From assembly GCF_007859755.1 (NCBI RefSeq), contig NZ_SJPF01000009.1, positions 741 through 58,151 of the forward strand: a stretch of 57,411 nucleotides of DNA, written 5' to 3'. The stretch's first letter is position 1; each line of letters starts with the position of its first letter. The notes beneath the pieces were generated by a model, which was not told the DNA's origin, ran no database searches, and was given only the letters and a program-made list of their open reading frames with translations. This document shows positions 47,869 to 53,602 of the stretch, one piece after another. The position numbers and the translations under genes were made by a program. The stretch is from Blastopirellula retiformator. Lineage in GTDB: Bacteria > Planctomycetota > Planctomycetia > Pirellulales > Pirellulaceae.

Positions 47869-48025
47869 TCCGCGGGACAGGGAAAACAAGCCCCATATTA
47901 GAGACGGAACCTGGGAATTGGACAACCTGGAGTGGGAAAAGACGCGGTTGGCGGAAATGTCAAATGTCTAAGCACGAATGTCCAATGCCGGAGAATTTGA
48001 CTCTTCATTCGACATTTGGCCTCAG

Positions 48026-48175
48026 CAGTCCGTTGATTTTCTCGATGGACTGCGTGATCGCAGGGATGCGATCCCAAAATAGCGACGTAAGTCGTTATTT
48101 TGCGAGCCGCGAAGAGTTACGCTCTGAGCCTGGCGAGGTCGAAAAATGCCACGATGGCATTTTTCAACAGGCAGT
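48026..48175 (+). repeat. Family B hairpin element, copy B5
   Basis: A 150 bp full-length copy. The right flank is TAG; the left flank CAG differs by one base. It lies between the M16 partner start and the acetyltransferase stop, inside a stretch with words like CATTCGTCATTGG on both sides. Confidence 0.92.
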
Positions 48176-48224
48176 TAGACATTCGTCATTGGCGGCCTCG
48201 CCGACGGCAAACCCTGCTCCGGCG

Positions 48225-48842: not shown

Positions 48843-48991
48843 CGTCCATCGAAGCGTTCTAGCAATTTATCCCGCTCGCTCCCTGGGGTCAATTTTCGAC
48901 CCCGCTAGCACACCCGGACGAGACTACCTTTGTGGCTGACGATTACAGCGATTCCTCCGCTGAAACCCGCTGGAATTCCCCGAGAAAGGAA

Positions 48992-49021
48992 TTGACGCCG
49001 TCGCCGACCGCCTCCTATACT
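48992..49021 (+). promoter_or_regulatory. Sigma70-type promoter of the metal ABC operon
   Basis: TTGACG at 48992-48997 and TATACT at 49016-49021 are separated by 18 bp. Start of transcription is expected near 49028, inside the palindrome that follows. Confidence 0.65.
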
Positions 49022-49039
49022 TTTTGATGAATCAAAAAG
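49020..49039. promoter_or_regulatory. Perfect 9-2-9 palindrome, candidate metal-regulator operator
   Basis: CTTTTTGAT-GA-ATCAAAAAG overlaps the -10 box and expected start point. A further half site ATCAAAAA lies at 49052-49059, just before the ATG. The position suits a repressor. The DtxR-like domain encoded by the last gene of the operon is the natural candidate, by inference. Confidence 0.65.
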
Positions 49040-49061
49040 TCCTTTCTGTGGATCAAAAACA

Positions 49062-49955
49062 ATGCGAGGGCTTTCTGCGTCAGCGGCGATTCTGTTGGCG
49101 TTAACGTCGTATTCACTCGTTTTAGCGGACGAGCCAAAGCCGTTGGTCGTATGTTCCACCACGCAGGTGGCCGATTTCGCTCGCCAGGTCGTGGGGGACC
49201 GGATGGAAGTCCGTTCGATCCTGGCTGCCGGCCAAGATCCGCACGTCTACGAAATCAAACCGAATGACGCGGCTCTGGTTTCGCGGGCCCTGCTCTGCTT
49301 TGACAATGGCTGGCACCTGGAAGGCGCCGACTGGATGCGCAAACTGGCCGAGAACGCCAAAAAACCGATCACCAGCTGCGTCACCGGCGCGACCCCGCTC
49401 GAAATCCCCGGCGGCGCGGCGCACGATCCGCATGCCTGGTTCTCGCCCGCCAATGCGGCCGTTTATGTGCGAAACATTCGGGACGCCGTTAGCGAGCAAG
49501 ATCCCAAACATCGTGACGAGTACCATGCCCGAGCTCAGCTTTACCTCGATCAGCTGCGCACGCTTGACGGTTGGATTCGCCGGCAACTGAACGTGATTCC
49601 GGTCGAAAAACGGATCCTGGTCACCAGTCATGATGCGTTCAACTACTTCTGTCGCGACTATCAGTTCAAAGCGGCCACGCCGGTCGGTTGGTCAACCGGA
49701 TCGGAAGTTGGCGGCGGCGTCACGCCCGAGCGACGCAGCGAGACGGTCAACTCGATCCGCCAGTTCGGCGTCCGCTCCATCTTTGTCGAAACCTCGGTCA
49801 GCCCGCAGCTGATTCGCCAGATCGCCGACGAAGCCGGCGTCTCTATCGGCGGCGAGCTCTATTCCGACTCGATGGGCCCCGCCGGTTCGGCCGGCGAAAC
49901 CTACTTCGGCATGATGCGCGAGAACGTTTTAACGATTGCGTCGGGATTGAGATAG
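49062..49955 (+). CDS. Zinc/manganese/iron ABC transporter substrate-binding protein (cluster A-I)
   Basis: A 297-residue periplasmic metal-binding protein with a signal peptide (1-22). Likely metal ligands are His61 (GQDPHVYEIKP), His124 (HDPHAWFSP), His190 (TSHDAF) or Glu243 (FVETS), and Asp269 (YSDSMGP). There is no His-rich loop between the first ligands, which favours Mn or Fe over Zn. First gene of a four-gene operon; the next gene starts 6 nt later. The promoter and palindrome lie just upstream. Confidence 0.92.
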   Translation: MRGLSASAAILLALTSYSLVLADEPKPLVVCSTTQVADFARQVVGDRMEVRSILAAGQDPHVYEIKPNDAALVSRALLCFDNGWHLEGADWMRKLAENAKKPITSCVTGATPLEIPGGAAHDPHAWFSPANAAVYVRNIRDAVSEQDPKHRDEYHARAQLYLDQLRTLDGWIRRQLNVIPVEKRILVTSHDAFNYFCRDYQFKAATPVGWSTGSEVGGGVTPERRSETVNSIRQFGVRSIFVETSVSPQLIRQIADEAGVSIGGELYSDSMGPAGSAGETYFGMMRENVLTIASGLR

Positions 49956-49961
49956 ACGGCC

Positions 49962-50462
49962 ATGCGTATCATTGCGGCACTTGCGGCGGCGGCCATCGCC
50001 CTGCTGATGGTTCAGGCTTACTTAAGTCTTGATCAACCACGGCCTGCCGCTGCGCTCGACGTCAACCAGCTGGAAACCGCCGCCGGCACGTTCCGCCTGG
50101 AAGTGGAACTGTCGTTCGACGCGGGACCCGATCGTTTTGCTGCGGACCTCAGCAACTCCAGTTCGCTGACCATTCGCTTTGCTGGCGAAGCGATCTATCA
50201 AACCGACAAGCCGGTCGCGGCGGGTCAAAAGGTGGAGGTCGCCGACATTGGCGATGTGGTCCATGGCCGCAATGAATTTCTGATCGAAGCGACGCCGCAG
50301 AATCCGGGGCCGCCGCTATTCGCCAAAGTGGCGATCTACTCCAGCGAGCGTCACGAGCCGCTAGCCGAACGTTTCGTCTGGGCGCCAGCCGGATCGACGC
50401 AACTTTCTGGCGTCGCCAATTTCTCAACGATCGAAACGCCGGTCGCAGGAGACGCGCCATGA
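49962..50462 (+). CDS. Small exported or membrane-anchored protein within the metal ABC operon
   Basis: A 166-residue protein with an N-terminal hydrophobic segment (RIIAALAAAAIALLMVQAYL) and a beta-rich mature part (FRLEVELSFDAGPDRF, then NEFLIEATPQNPGPPLF). Its tail is HEPLAERFVWAP. No family was recognised. Placed between binding protein and ATPase genes, with 6 nt to the former and a 4 nt ATGA overlap with the latter, it is surely co-translated and probably helps the transporter outside the membrane. Confidence 0.75.
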   Translation: MRIIAALAAAAIALLMVQAYLSLDQPRPAAALDVNQLETAAGTFRLEVELSFDAGPDRFAADLSNSSSLTIRFAGEAIYQTDKPVAAGQKVEVADIGDVVHGRNEFLIEATPQNPGPPLFAKVAIYSSERHEPLAERFVWAPAGSTQLSGVANFSTIETPVAGDAP

Positions 50463-51247
50463 TCGCCCCTCCCAGACGCAACGGCCCACCGCCAGCGGTG
50501 CAAGTCGACCACCTGACCGTCAGCTATGGCCCGGCGCCGGTGTTGCTTGATATTTCGTTTCAGATCGAACCGGGACAGTTGGTCGGCGTGATCGGGCCGA
50601 ACGGTTCCGGCAAGTCGACCTTGATCAAGTCAATCCTCGGTTTCGTGAAGCCTGATCTGGGGGAAGTTCGTCTGTTCGGCGTGCCGAGCGAAAAGGCCCG
50701 CAAACGAGTCGCTTACGTTCCGCAGCGGGGCGCCGTCGACTGGGACTTTCCGGTCACGGTCGAACAAGTCGTGATGATGGGACGCTATGGACAGATCCCG
50801 TGGTGGGCCTGGGGACCGTCGCACGATGATCGCCTGGCGGTCGACGACGCGCTGGAAACGGTCCGCATGACGAAGTTCCGCCGCCGGCAAATTGGCCAGC
50901 TCTCGGGCGGGCAGCAACAGCGGGTCTTTATGGCCCGGGCCCTTGCCCAAGGCGCCGACATTCTGCTGCTCGACGAACCGTTCGCCGGCGTTGACGCGGC
51001 CACCGAACGGGCGCTGCTTGAAGTGCTCGACAGCACCAAAGGGGCCGGTCGCACGCTGATCGTCGTACATCACGACCTGGCGACGGCGGCCGAGTACTTT
51101 GACGCACTACTCTTGATCAAACAGCGGCTGTTCGCGTTTGGCTCGCCGCAACAAGTGCTGCAGCCAGAACTGCTGTCGGAAGTTTACGAAGGATCGCTAA
51201 GGGCGTTCGAGCACCTCCGCGACGTTTCGACCGGAGGGACGCGATGA
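50459..51247 (+). CDS. Metal ABC transporter ATPase
   Basis: A 262-residue ATP-binding subunit. Walker A is GPNGSGKST (46-54), the Q-loop is YVPQRGAVDWDFPVTV, the signature LSGGQQQR is at 148-155, and Walker B is ILLLDEPFAGVD. The switch His is in VVHHDL. QRxxVDWDFPxTVxxVVxMGRY is characteristic of MntB/ZnuC/YtgB-type ATPases. It overlaps both neighbours by 4 nt (ATGA). Confidence 0.96.
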   Translation: MIAPPRRNGPPPAVQVDHLTVSYGPAPVLLDISFQIEPGQLVGVIGPNGSGKSTLIKSILGFVKPDLGEVRLFGVPSEKARKRVAYVPQRGAVDWDFPVTVEQVVMMGRYGQIPWWAWGPSHDDRLAVDDALETVRMTKFRRRQIGQLSGGQQQRVFMARALAQGADILLLDEPFAGVDAATERALLEVLDSTKGAGRTLIVVHHDLATAAEYFDALLLIKQRLFAFGSPQQVLQPELLSEVYEGSLRAFEHLRDVSTGGTR

Positions 51248-52785
51248 ACTTTCTGTACGATCTCTTTGTCGAGCCGCTCGCTTCCGGCGGTTATTTGTTG
51301 CGTGCGATGTTCGCCGGTTCGTTGGTCGCGATCGCCTCAGCAATGATCGGCTGCTTTATCGTCTTGCGGCGGATGGCGTTTCTAGGGGATGCAATCTCGC
51401 ACTCGATGTTGGCCGGCGTCGTCGGCGGCTATCTGGTCATGAAAGTGATCGCCGGCGAAGAAGCGCACTTTGGCGCGATGATCCTGGGCGCGTTGCTCAG
51501 CGGTTTTGTAACCGTGCTGCTGATCGGCTTCGTCTCTCGCGCTTCACGCGTGAAAGACGACACCGCGATCGGAATCATGTACACCGGCATTTTTGCCTTC
51601 GGCGGCGCGATGGCGAGCGTTTTCTCCAGCGAGATCCACGTCGATCTGATGCACATGGTGATGGGAGACGTCCTGGTGGTCGACTCGCAGCGACTGTGGA
51701 TGATGGGAACCGTCACCGCGATCGTGCTGTTTGTCGTGATCTTGTTTTACCGCCAGCTGCAACTGACCAGCTTTGACCCAATCATGGCGGCGTCGGTTGG
51801 CGTTTCGGCAACGCTGGTTGGCTACCTTCTGACTGCCTGCACTTCGCTGGTGGTCGTTTCGGCCGTTTCGATCGTCGGCATCATTCAGGTGGTCGGCCTA
51901 TTGATCACGCCGGCGGCCGCCGCCTATCTGCTGTGCGATCGGTTGTCGCGAATGTTGATGCTGTCGGCGGCGCTCGGCGTCAGTAGCGTGGTACTTGGGA
52001 TTTACGCATCGGCCTGGTTCAACATTGGCGCCGGTTCTTCGATCGTCATGGCGGGGACGGTGCAGTTCATGGCGATCCTGATTCTGGCGCCCCATAACGG
52101 ACTGTTGGCAGGCACGATCCGCCGCTGGCGTCAGGCCCCACAACACATTCTGGAAGATGTCCTCGGCTGTTTGCGCCGTGATGAAACGCACGCAACGCGG
52201 TTCGAGACGATTCGGGCTTATGTGCACGCCCATCCCTCGGTTCTGCGTCGCGTATTACAGCGGATGCTGTCTTTGGCGCTGCTCGACAAAACGCCTGATG
52301 GCTATATCCTGACCGAAGCGGGGCAATTGGAAGCGCGGCGATTGATGCGGGCACACCGCATCTGGGAAACCTATCTGCAGCGCGTCGGCATGCCGGAAGA
52401 CTCGCTCCACGACCGCGCCCACCTGCTGGAACACTTGAACGACGAAGCGACGGTCGACTATCTCGATGATCGATTAGGACACCCGATCCGCGATCCACAT
52501 GGACAGGAAATCCCGGAAGACTTCGTCGACCTGGTCCCGGGCGCCGAAGTGAAGGCGAGCCTGTTGCGTGACGGCCATCGCGCCGCAGTCACGGCGATTC
52601 TTGACGACCTGAATACGGACGAGGTCGCGGTCGGCGATATGATCGTTGCAGGACCGCGGGAAGCGGACGACACGATCTGGACGTTTCATCTGCCGAACGG
52701 CGAACAGCTGAAATTGGATCACGACTTGGCCGACCTGCTGATCGTCCGCTTGGCCGATCCGCTGCAAGCCCCCCCGTTCCACTAA
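51244..52785 (+). CDS. Metal ABC permease fused to a DtxR/MntR-like repressor (YtgCR-type)
   Basis: A 513-residue fusion. Residues about 15-290 form an ABC-3 permease with eight or nine helices (CFIVLRRMAFLGDAISHSMLAGV; VVGLLITPAAAAYLL). Residues about 300-365 form a winged helix (HPSVLRRVLQRMLSLALLD, then GYILTEAGQLEA). Residues 366-425 match the DtxR metal-binding/dimerisation domain. His371, Glu375, His389, Glu396 and His397 fall at the DtxR ligand positions, and His393 replaces the Cys. An SH3-like domain (about 428-505) ends it. Chlamydia YtgC-YtgR has the same permease-repressor fusion and is cleaved to free the repressor. The TAA stop abuts family B copy B6. Confidence 0.92.
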   Translation: MNFLYDLFVEPLASGGYLLRAMFAGSLVAIASAMIGCFIVLRRMAFLGDAISHSMLAGVVGGYLVMKVIAGEEAHFGAMILGALLSGFVTVLLIGFVSRASRVKDDTAIGIMYTGIFAFGGAMASVFSSEIHVDLMHMVMGDVLVVDSQRLWMMGTVTAIVLFVVILFYRQLQLTSFDPIMAASVGVSATLVGYLLTACTSLVVVSAVSIVGIIQVVGLLITPAAAAYLLCDRLSRMLMLSAALGVSSVVLGIYASAWFNIGAGSSIVMAGTVQFMAILILAPHNGLLAGTIRRWRQAPQHILEDVLGCLRRDETHATRFETIRAYVHAHPSVLRRVLQRMLSLALLDKTPDGYILTEAGQLEARRLMRAHRIWETYLQRVGMPEDSLHDRAHLLEHLNDEATVDYLDDRLGHPIRDPHGQEIPEDFVDLVPGAEVKASLLRDGHRAAVTAILDDLNTDEVAVGDMIVAGPREADDTIWTFHLPNGEQLKLDHDLADLLIVRLADPLQAPPFH

Positions 52786-52900
52786 CTGCCTGTTGGAAAA
52801 TGCCATCGTGGCATTTTCCAACCTCGCCAGGCTCAGAGCGTAGCTCTTCGCGGCTCGCATCCATGCGATCACGCAGTCCGTCGAGAAAATCAACGGACTG
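52785..52900 (-). repeat. Family B element, 116 bp copy B6 lacking one hairpin
   Basis: An inverted copy missing the AAAATA/TATTTT hairpin. It is flanked by CTA on both sides (52782-52784 and 52901-52903). Each CTA holds part of a stop codon: TAA of the upstream plus-strand gene and TAG of the downstream minus-strand gene. Confidence 0.93.
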
Positions 52901-53602
52901 CTAACCGTTCTTCTTTTTCGATCCAATGCCGAACAAGACGCGATTCATCGTTTCGTTCTTGCTTCCCTTGTTCAATTGCCGCTGCATAAAGCCGGCGGCT
53001 CGTTCGGCGGCGACCAAAAAATCGCGGACCTCTGGATGATGATAGGCGACAGCGAACTGCAGCGGGCGGAGTCCGTTGGCGTTGTTCATGTCGAGGTCGG
53101 CGCCTGCTTTGACCAGCACTTGCGCGACGTCTAAAAATCCCTTCCGCGCCGCCCAGTGCAGCACGCCGCAGCCGTCGGGATCCTGCGTATGCAGATTCGC
53201 CCCTTTGTTGAGCAGCATCGAAGTCGCCTCGGCGTGCCCTTCGCGTACGGCGTACAGCAGCGGAGTTTGCATCGTCCGCGTCGCTCGAATCTCGAGCTTC
53301 GCACCGCCGACCAACAACTCTTGCAGGGCATGCAGCTTGCCATGCAAACTGGCGATGTGCAGCGGCGTGTGCCCATCTTTGGGCGCCTGCACATCGAGTT
53401 CCCCCTCTTCTCTGGCGAACTCGCGGATCACCTCGCCGTCATTACGACGCGCGGCGAACAAGACGCCTAGCTTCATCCGTTCTTCGACGCTTTTGTCGGG
53501 AATGAAAAAGCTGCGCCGGCATTTTAGACAGAGAACCTCATGACCGCGCGCCTCGTTCGGCACCACGCCCATGGTCTCACAAAGCGGACAACGATAGTTC
53601 AT
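52901..53602 (-). CDS. Zinc-ribbon ankyrin-repeat protein
   Basis: A 233-residue protein. The N-terminal zinc ribbon has Cys5/Cys8 and Cys25/Cys28 (RCPLCE, then LCLKCRRSF). At least four ankyrin repeats (about 75-205) follow: DGHTPLHIASLHGKLHAL, MQTPLLYAVREGHAEATS, DGCGVLHWAARKGFLDVA and NGLRPLQFAVAYHHPEV. It probably mediates protein contacts in the cytoplasm. The ATG at 53602 starts the zinc ribbon; the frame reaches 53629. The TAG stop lies in the duplicated CTA next to family B copy B6. Confidence 0.88.
   Translation of the reverse strand: MNYRCPLCETMGVVPNEARGHEVLCLKCRRSFFIPDKSVEERMKLGVLFAARRNDGEVIREFAREEGELDVQAPKDGHTPLHIASLHGKLHALQELLVGGAKLEIRATRTMQTPLLYAVREGHAEATSMLLNKGANLHTQDPDGCGVLHWAARKGFLDVAQVLVKAGADLDMNNANGLRPLQFAVAYHHPEVRDFLVAAERAAGFMQRQLNKGSKNETMNRVLFGIGSKKKNG

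Follow-up and report, generated by a model that had tools for sequence, protein, structure and literature searches.

In the 57,411-nucleotide stretch of the Blastopirellula retiformator genome analyzed here (the window), the last gene of a metal importer operon encodes a 513-residue protein in which a permease of the ABC-3 family is joined to a three-domain tail resembling the metalloregulators DtxR and MntR. On the basis of sequence comparisons and structure predictions, we give an even chance to the reading that this repressor domain has been turned into a metal sensor on the transporter, acting by feedback inhibition, with a separate MntR controlling transcription. Permease-DtxR fusions are currently read through the chlamydial example as cleaved self-repressors, and for a sizeable group of them we arrive at a different prediction, in which metal is sensed on the transporter and a separate MntR takes care of transcription. 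Were this so, an ATP-binding cassette (ABC) metal importer would have a metal-responsive feedback domain on its permease, and a transcription-factor domain would have been recruited as the regulatory domain of a transporter. The initial annotation, which had proposed a permease-repressor fusion cut to release its own repressor, is partly supported overall; the architecture stands, and the mechanism is probably to be revised to a metal sensor on the transporter, the promoter being left to a separate MntR. The named strain Blastopirellula marina DSM 3645, to which the window assembly is close, has a near relative of the fusion (87% identical), which makes the question directly testable.

The architecture was computed by several routes, all of which agree with the single chain of permease, winged helix, metal/dimerization domain, and SH3-like end that had been described initially. 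Pfam assigned residues 17-280 to ABC-3 (E 1.1e-55) and residues 357-425 to Fe_dep_repr_C (PF02742; E 1.8e-21), and its scan of the fusion did not find the DtxR DNA-binding family PF01325. In phmmer searches, residues 8-286 matched the PsaBC permease (7kyp, E 5e-41), and DtxR/MntR chains were matched over about residues 304-459. The permease is 35% identical to 7kyp, from Streptococcus pneumoniae, which Foldseek against the PDB also returned; PsaBC permease chains (282-290 residues) align up to residue 286, whereas the window fusion has 227 more residues. Its D49 and H53 align with D46 and H50 of PsaBC, described in a passage of PMC11779740 as manganese ligands, and both are invariant in 24 aligned fusions, namely the window protein and 23 relatives that are 36-86% identical. 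Permease and PF02742 lie in one chain in all 23 relatives, one of which (locus L028) is without the SH3-like end, and chance joining or misassembly is thereby ruled out. The linker, at about residues 284-299, is gap-free and without insertion across the 24 proteins.

AlphaFold2 gave a predicted local distance difference test (pLDDT) score of 75.7 and a predicted template modeling (pTM) score of 0.49 for the full-length protein, and values of 88.1 and 0.81 for residues 290-513 alone. The winged-helix fold, whose absence would have spoken against the initial annotation and for which that annotation had suggested a comparison of the predicted tail with DtxR and MntR, is thus confidently predicted: the tail model comprises a winged helix at residues 300-357, a long helix, the metal/dimerization helices, and a beta-rich SH3-like end. 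Foldseek searches of the PDB with the tail returned DtxR, IdeR, and MntR as well as SloR, ScaR, and DR2539 structures. Superposition on two-domain chains such as 8pvt/8pw0 gave a root mean square deviation of 1.5-1.7 over ∼125 columns (TMt 0.81-0.83), and on full three-domain chains one of 10-15 (TMt ∼0.5); the SH3-like part of the model is therefore positioned differently. A profile built from 33 tails matched three-domain metalloregulators over nearly the full length. The FeoA family was matched in six of the 24 fusions at E ≤ 1 and in five at E ≤ 0.05, with no match in the window fusion itself.

Permease-DtxR fusions are a kind already reported and not new; permease-repressor fusions from 11 phyla are attributed to Thompson et al. 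2012 in a passage of the review PMC5599777. We compared 69 loci chosen from the best-scoring matches listed, 238 of 294 genomes having had a match; L006 and L104, like L009 and L071, apparently come from the same genomes. Two designs were found among the fetched loci. In the window design, a long tail (mostly 219-229 residues) of winged helix, metal domain, and SH3-like domain is carried by what is usually the sole permease. In the other design, two permease open reading frames (ORFs) are present at 50 of 56 loci: the tail of the B permease consists of a winged helix and a metal domain and ends there, and the A permease has a weaker version of this tail (35 loci), a winged-helix-like tail only, or none. 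Some partner permeases carry only this winged-helix-like tail, of 83-97 residues, and it is also all that is seen in genome G266. A metal-domain tail is present on both tandem permeases at 35 of the 56 loci, and tails on both halves of a two-permease transporter suggest that they pair under the membrane.

Separate regulators accompany most of these fusions. The B. retiformator assembly has two PF02742 domains, one in the fusion and one in a separate MntR, which is encoded on contig C7 (47817-48488) and whose DNA-binding domain is canonical. Of the 69 genomes from which the loci were fetched, 65 had a PF01325 match at E ≤ 1e-6, and the fused permeases themselves give none. A separate MntR-like winged helix is encoded in 30 of 93 fetched stretches, and in the other design 11 of 56 loci have a separate MntR lying divergently beside the gene of the substrate-binding protein (SBP). 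The arrangement extends beyond planctomycetes: in two metagenome-assembled genomes of Ignavibacteriales (L025 and L026), the contig that encodes two fused permeases also encodes a separate long MntR a short distance upstream of them. Because records labeled Ignavibacteriales and Desulfomonile contain fusions too, the superphylum shared by chlamydiae and planctomycetes, to which the initial annotation had appealed, says little by itself.

For the conservation analyses, identical rows were removed, leaving 33 long-tailed, 54 B-type, and 37 A-type tails and 44 separate MntRs; the long-tailed set includes two Ignavibacteriales loci (in which a second fused permease is present), and four ORFs that are the ends of cut permeases were left out of the separate set. 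The window fusion has D305, H371, E375, H389, H393, E396, and H397 at the ligand positions; the initial annotation had correctly placed H371, E375, H389, E396, and H397 and had missed the other two. D305 aligns with D8 of MntR and H393 with E99 of MntR and C102 of DtxR. D305, H371, E375, E396, and H397 are each present in 33/33 long-tailed domains, H389 in 29/33 (the other four having Asp), and H393 in 28/33. At the position of H393, 43 of the 44 separate MntRs have Glu, and the His could shift metal preference. A tryptophan between two ligands, Trp374, is found in 33/33 long tails, 54/54 B-type tails, and 36/37 A-type tails, whereas the separate MntRs have Ile, Leu, or Val there in 44/44 cases. 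In a tree, the fused domains (109 rows) fell on one side of a branch and 36 separate long MntRs on the other with a Shimodaira-Hasegawa-like approximate likelihood ratio test (SH-aLRT) support of 98, in a quick calculation on few columns with 68 of 142 forks open and the short MntRs left out.

The winged helix of the fusion has drifted while the metal domain has been held. Among the four genomes of the window genus, pairwise differences amounted to 5.4% in the permease, 5.7% in the metal/dimerization domain, 24.4% in the winged helix, and 22.9% in the SH3-like domain, compared with 2.4% in the winged helix of the separate MntR of the same genomes. A second genus behaved alike (5.7%, 7.7%, 21.5%, and 31.9%, respectively, and 4.4% in the separate winged helix). 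The mean nonsynonymous divergence (dN) was 0.163 for the fused winged helix and 0.024 for the separate one, and when metal-domain divergence was matched, the fused winged helix was the more divergent in all four bins compared. Column information in the recognition helix was 1.42 bits for long-tailed fusions and 2.35 bits for separate MntRs, and in the metal domain 2.53 and 2.79 bits. PF01325 was matched in all 26 separate MntRs scanned (of 44 collected), in one of 34 B-type tails scanned (of 54 collected; E 0.04), and in none of 24 window-type fusions at E ≤ 0.05. A winged-helix profile of the separate long MntRs matched one of 142 permease ORFs, at 10.3 bits, compared with 33-103 bits for separate MntRs. 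By both conservation and profile comparison, the DNA-recognition helix as conserved in DtxR/MntR regulators is not kept in the fusions. We conclude that selection keeps the metal site and the dimerization helices about as tightly as the permease and that the constraint is not on DNA reading.

The operon has a putative operator (Table 1), the core of which, TTTTGA-N4-TCAAAA, has a single exact match in the 6.2-Mb assembly. With up to one mismatch, it occurs at 12 places in the genome, compared with six for the reversed pattern, and once in the window, where shuffled sequences gave a mean of 0.13 and a match turned up in 11 of 100 shuffles. Relatives have the core ahead of the SBP gene as well, some of them in operons next to which a separate MntR is encoded divergently. 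Genomes were scored as MntR-positive when they had a full-length match at E ≤ 1e-60, a threshold set by hand, so that shorter two-domain MntRs counted as MntR-negative though several of them adjoin the operon; seven of the 69 loci (four MntR-positive and three MntR-negative) had no scorable region upstream of the SBP gene and were left out. Among the resulting 62 planctomycete loci, an operator score of at least 11 of 12 was obtained at 26 of 42 loci from MntR-positive genomes and at 0 of 20 from MntR-negative ones (Fisher p 9e-7, uncorrected for kinship). For long-tailed fusions only, the operator was present in 9/9 MntR-positive and 0/3 MntR-negative cases. Loci from a contig search were scored as well: L024, from a genome with a long separate MntR, scored 12; among those without a long MntR, L013 scored 10 (p 0.04) and the other listed ones 9 or less; and L028 is cut before the SBP gene.

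At L125 and L143, other palindrome-like stretches (TTTAGGTGTACCTAAA and TTTTTAGTTATCCCTAAAA, respectively) occur upstream of the SBP gene, with the TTTTGA-N4-TCAAAA core missing; perhaps these represent operator turnover. The possibility that the separate MntR controls its own gene through such an operator was considered and rejected, as the 13 kb around its gene held one match with one mismatch, not adjacent to the gene, with 0.33 expected.

The architecture, the conserved metal site, the drift of the fused winged helix, and the association of the operator with a separate long MntR are computed results, from which the following proposal is inferred. The importer would be a homodimeric ABC importer of the PsaBC type with one permease gene, transporting manganese or a related divalent metal, the permease being of the manganese type by similarity. 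Two tails would pair through their DtxR dimerization helices beneath the membrane, cytosolic metal would fill the site formed by D305, H371, E375, H389, H393, E396, and H397, and the paired tails, once filled with metal, would keep permease and ATPase from cycling, by feedback or trans-inhibition. The separate MntR would bind the 22-bp operator and control transcription of the operon. By analogy, the least elaborate function for a metal-binding domain that pairs on an importer would be feedback inhibition by cytosolic metal. The proposed logic is shared with MetNI and ModBC, in which, according to a passage of PMC10710835, cytosolic substrate at a pair of C-terminal domains blocks cycling. Likeness to the PsaBC/MntBC importers lies in the permease fold and both manganese ligand positions. 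With the separate repressors of the DtxR/MntR group (SloR, ScaR, DR2539, and IdeR) the tail shares the winged helix, metal/dimerization, and SH3-like parts; it differs from them in being tethered to a permease, in having Trp374 and mostly His at the position of MntR E99, and in the lack of a conserved recognition helix. More broadly, and with confidence somewhat short of even, we suggest an evolutionary capture, in which a DNA-binding metalloregulator became part of a transporter of the type that related regulators control and was remodeled into an allosteric metal gauge, many planctomycete relatives having paired, unequal tails, so that the same fold would control both promoter and membrane. 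The same may hold for other permease-DtxR fusions that have been taken for cleaved repressors. A limited literature search found no report of a permease-borne DtxR feedback domain.

Several points weigh against the proposed sensor. The known feedback domains (MetN and ModC) are, according to PMC10710835, on the ATPase and not on the permease, and they have another fold, whereas the domain in the window fusion is DtxR-derived and on the permease. Purifying selection still acts on the fused winged helix, whose dN is far below the synonymous divergence (dS), itself near saturation. The recognition helix of the fusions is on average strongly basic, and more so than its counterpart in separate MntRs (net charge +3.15 compared with +0.55), and weak matches to the other helix-turn-helix (HTH) families MarR_2, HTH_27, and HTH_45 were obtained in 2/24 fusions each at E ≤ 0.05; together with the kept fold, these features mean that some DNA affinity is possible. 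The basic helix could touch the membrane or the ATPase, or it could retain some DNA binding. IdeR reads DNA indirectly, according to a passage of PMC8464063, its Gln43 contacts being dispensable and its P39G variant merely weakened, and the loss of base-contacting residues alone therefore does not exclude specific binding. The separate MntR set used for comparison leans canonical because it was drawn from the top of a ranked list. Four of the 69 genomes (G254, G199, G210, and G072) are without a PF01325 match at E ≤ 1e-6. As for the operator, 16 of the 42 MntR-positive loci score below 11, as do, from the contig search, L007, L008, L025, and L026 (9, 10, 8, and 8, respectively) despite a long MntR in the genome, and the association does not amount to 62 independent random points, because the MntR-positive genomes cluster by lineage and the best-scoring loci were chosen.

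The alternative taken up in the initial annotation, that the tail is cut near the linker to give a metal-dependent repressor of its own operon, now appears unlikely. Its model is YtgCR of Chlamydia trachomatis; passages of PMC6504234, PMC5599777, and PMC7755916 describe cleavage of the YtgCR tail and repression by this tail of the operon that encodes it. As described there, YtgCR and the window protein share the order of an ABC-3-type permease followed by a DtxR-like domain, conserved metal ligands, and a place in the operon of a metal ABC importer, so the likeness in architecture that had been noted is real, and the predicted DtxR fold with its basic recognition helix and the presence of a putative operator fit the same idea. 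The two differ in that YtgR, in those descriptions, was studied as the C-terminal 139 residues whereas the window tail has an SH3-like end, in that the WWW motif of YtgC is absent from the window fusion, and, comparing by the description of YtgCR, in that the PF01325 signature is gone and a separate MntR is present in the genome. A self-repressor is also hard to reconcile with rapid evolution of the winged helix alongside a retained operator, with the loss of PF01325 from all 24 fusions, with the lack of the operator where a fusion is present and a long separate MntR is missing, with the separate MntR-like winged helices in nearly a third of the fetched stretches, and with two tails per transporter at many loci of the other design. 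The four tests of signature, pace of change, operator, and redundancy indicate that the tail is probably not a repressor of its own operon, and release of the C-terminal part as such a repressor was accordingly dropped as the default reading.

Quite unlikely, too, is a module for assembly or stability, in which the tail would aid permease dimerization or mark the transporter for turnover with no metal-dependent gating. The drift of the winged-helix and SH3-like parts and the partner permeases that have only a winged-helix-like tail would suit such a role, but the strict conservation of the metal ligands exceeds the needs of a scaffold. Some transporters hold their regulators at the membrane, and the fused tails might similarly pair with the separate MntR through the shared dimerization domain and retain it there according to transport state or metal. 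We regard this as improbable: the dimerization/metal domain is kept in both proteins, and a PF01325 protein accompanies the fusion in nearly all of the genomes, but the fused domains form a branch distinct from the long separate ones and do not share Trp374 with them, and tandem permeases would already pair their own tails. Least probable is an uncut, membrane-tethered DNA binder of other or relaxed specificity, which might, for example, recruit its locus to the membrane or repress other genes. The basic recognition helix, the predicted winged-helix fold, and an indirect readout like that described for IdeR would allow this, but it is opposed by the fast divergence even within a genus and by a repeat search of the 226 bp upstream of the SBP gene, which at the settings used gave only the operator and a half-site; a GC-rich repeat near the GNAT gene was seen by eye.

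That GC-rich inverted repeat, GGGGTC-AATTTTC-GACCCC at ∼48885-48903, lies near the start of the divergent GNAT gene and is similar, by eye, in the four genomes of the genus. It was considered as a second operator (GGGGTC-N7-GACCCC), and the genome has one exact occurrence of its 15-bp core.

The operon is tightly arranged in the order listed in Table 1, the start of the fusion gene overlapping the stop of the ATPase gene in an ATGA. A second permease elsewhere in the genome was considered and rejected, as the assembly, 97% complete, has a single ABC-3 match. The SBP matched the AztC, EfaA, and MntC models of NCBIfam, all below the model cut-offs, and the best NCBIfam model for the ATPase was MntA (1.5e-71, also below its cut-off). 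The 166-residue protein encoded between them had no Pfam or NCBIfam match; relatives of it were found at 25 of 35 loci with long-tailed fusions (including a few cut or duplicate records) and at 0 of 56 loci of the other design, and it is possibly an accessory part of the importer type that has the long-tailed fusion.

Table 1. Features of the importer operon and of the fusion protein (window coordinates).
Feature	Position	Strand	Remarks
Sigma-70-like promoter	48992..49021	+	TTGACG-18-TATACT; 10 of 12; two such sites in the stretch searched, 0.2 in shuffles
Putative operator	49019..49040	+	Perfect 10-bp inverted repeat with 2-bp spacer (22 bp); core at 49022-49037; overlaps the -10 element
Additional half-site	49052..49059	+	ATCAAAAA; from repeat search
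SBP gene	49062..49955	+	First gene of operon; periplasmic, ZnuA/PsaA/MntC type; PF01297, E 1e-77
166-residue protein	49962..50462	+	Between SBP and ATPase; apparently exported (by eye)
ABC ATPase	50459..51247	+	MntA/AztA type; PF00005, E 7e-32
Permease fusion	51244..52785	+	ABC-3 permease with DtxR/MntR-like three-domain tail; last gene of operon; intact ORF
Permease domain	51244..52098	+	Residues 1-285; PsaBC type
Linker	52099..52140	+	Residues 286-299; short; low confidence in full-length model
Winged helix, degenerate	52141..52314	+	Residues 300-357; includes metal ligand D305
Metal-binding/dimerization domain	52315..52518	+	Residues 358-425; PF02742; holds H371, W374, E375, H389, H393, E396, and H397
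SH3-like (FeoA-like) domain	52543..52758	+	Residues 434-505; beta-rich in predicted model

An interspersed repeat (52782-52902) begins at the stop codon of the fusion gene and contains a perfect 14-bp hairpin (52792-52805/52809-52822). An inverted copy lies at 48024-48178, beyond the divergent GNAT gene, and the cassette is thus flanked by inverted copies of the repeat. A 125-bp repeat query gave at least 46 match rows in the genome (with 40 of 379 first-look candidates scored), many of them 95-99% identical.

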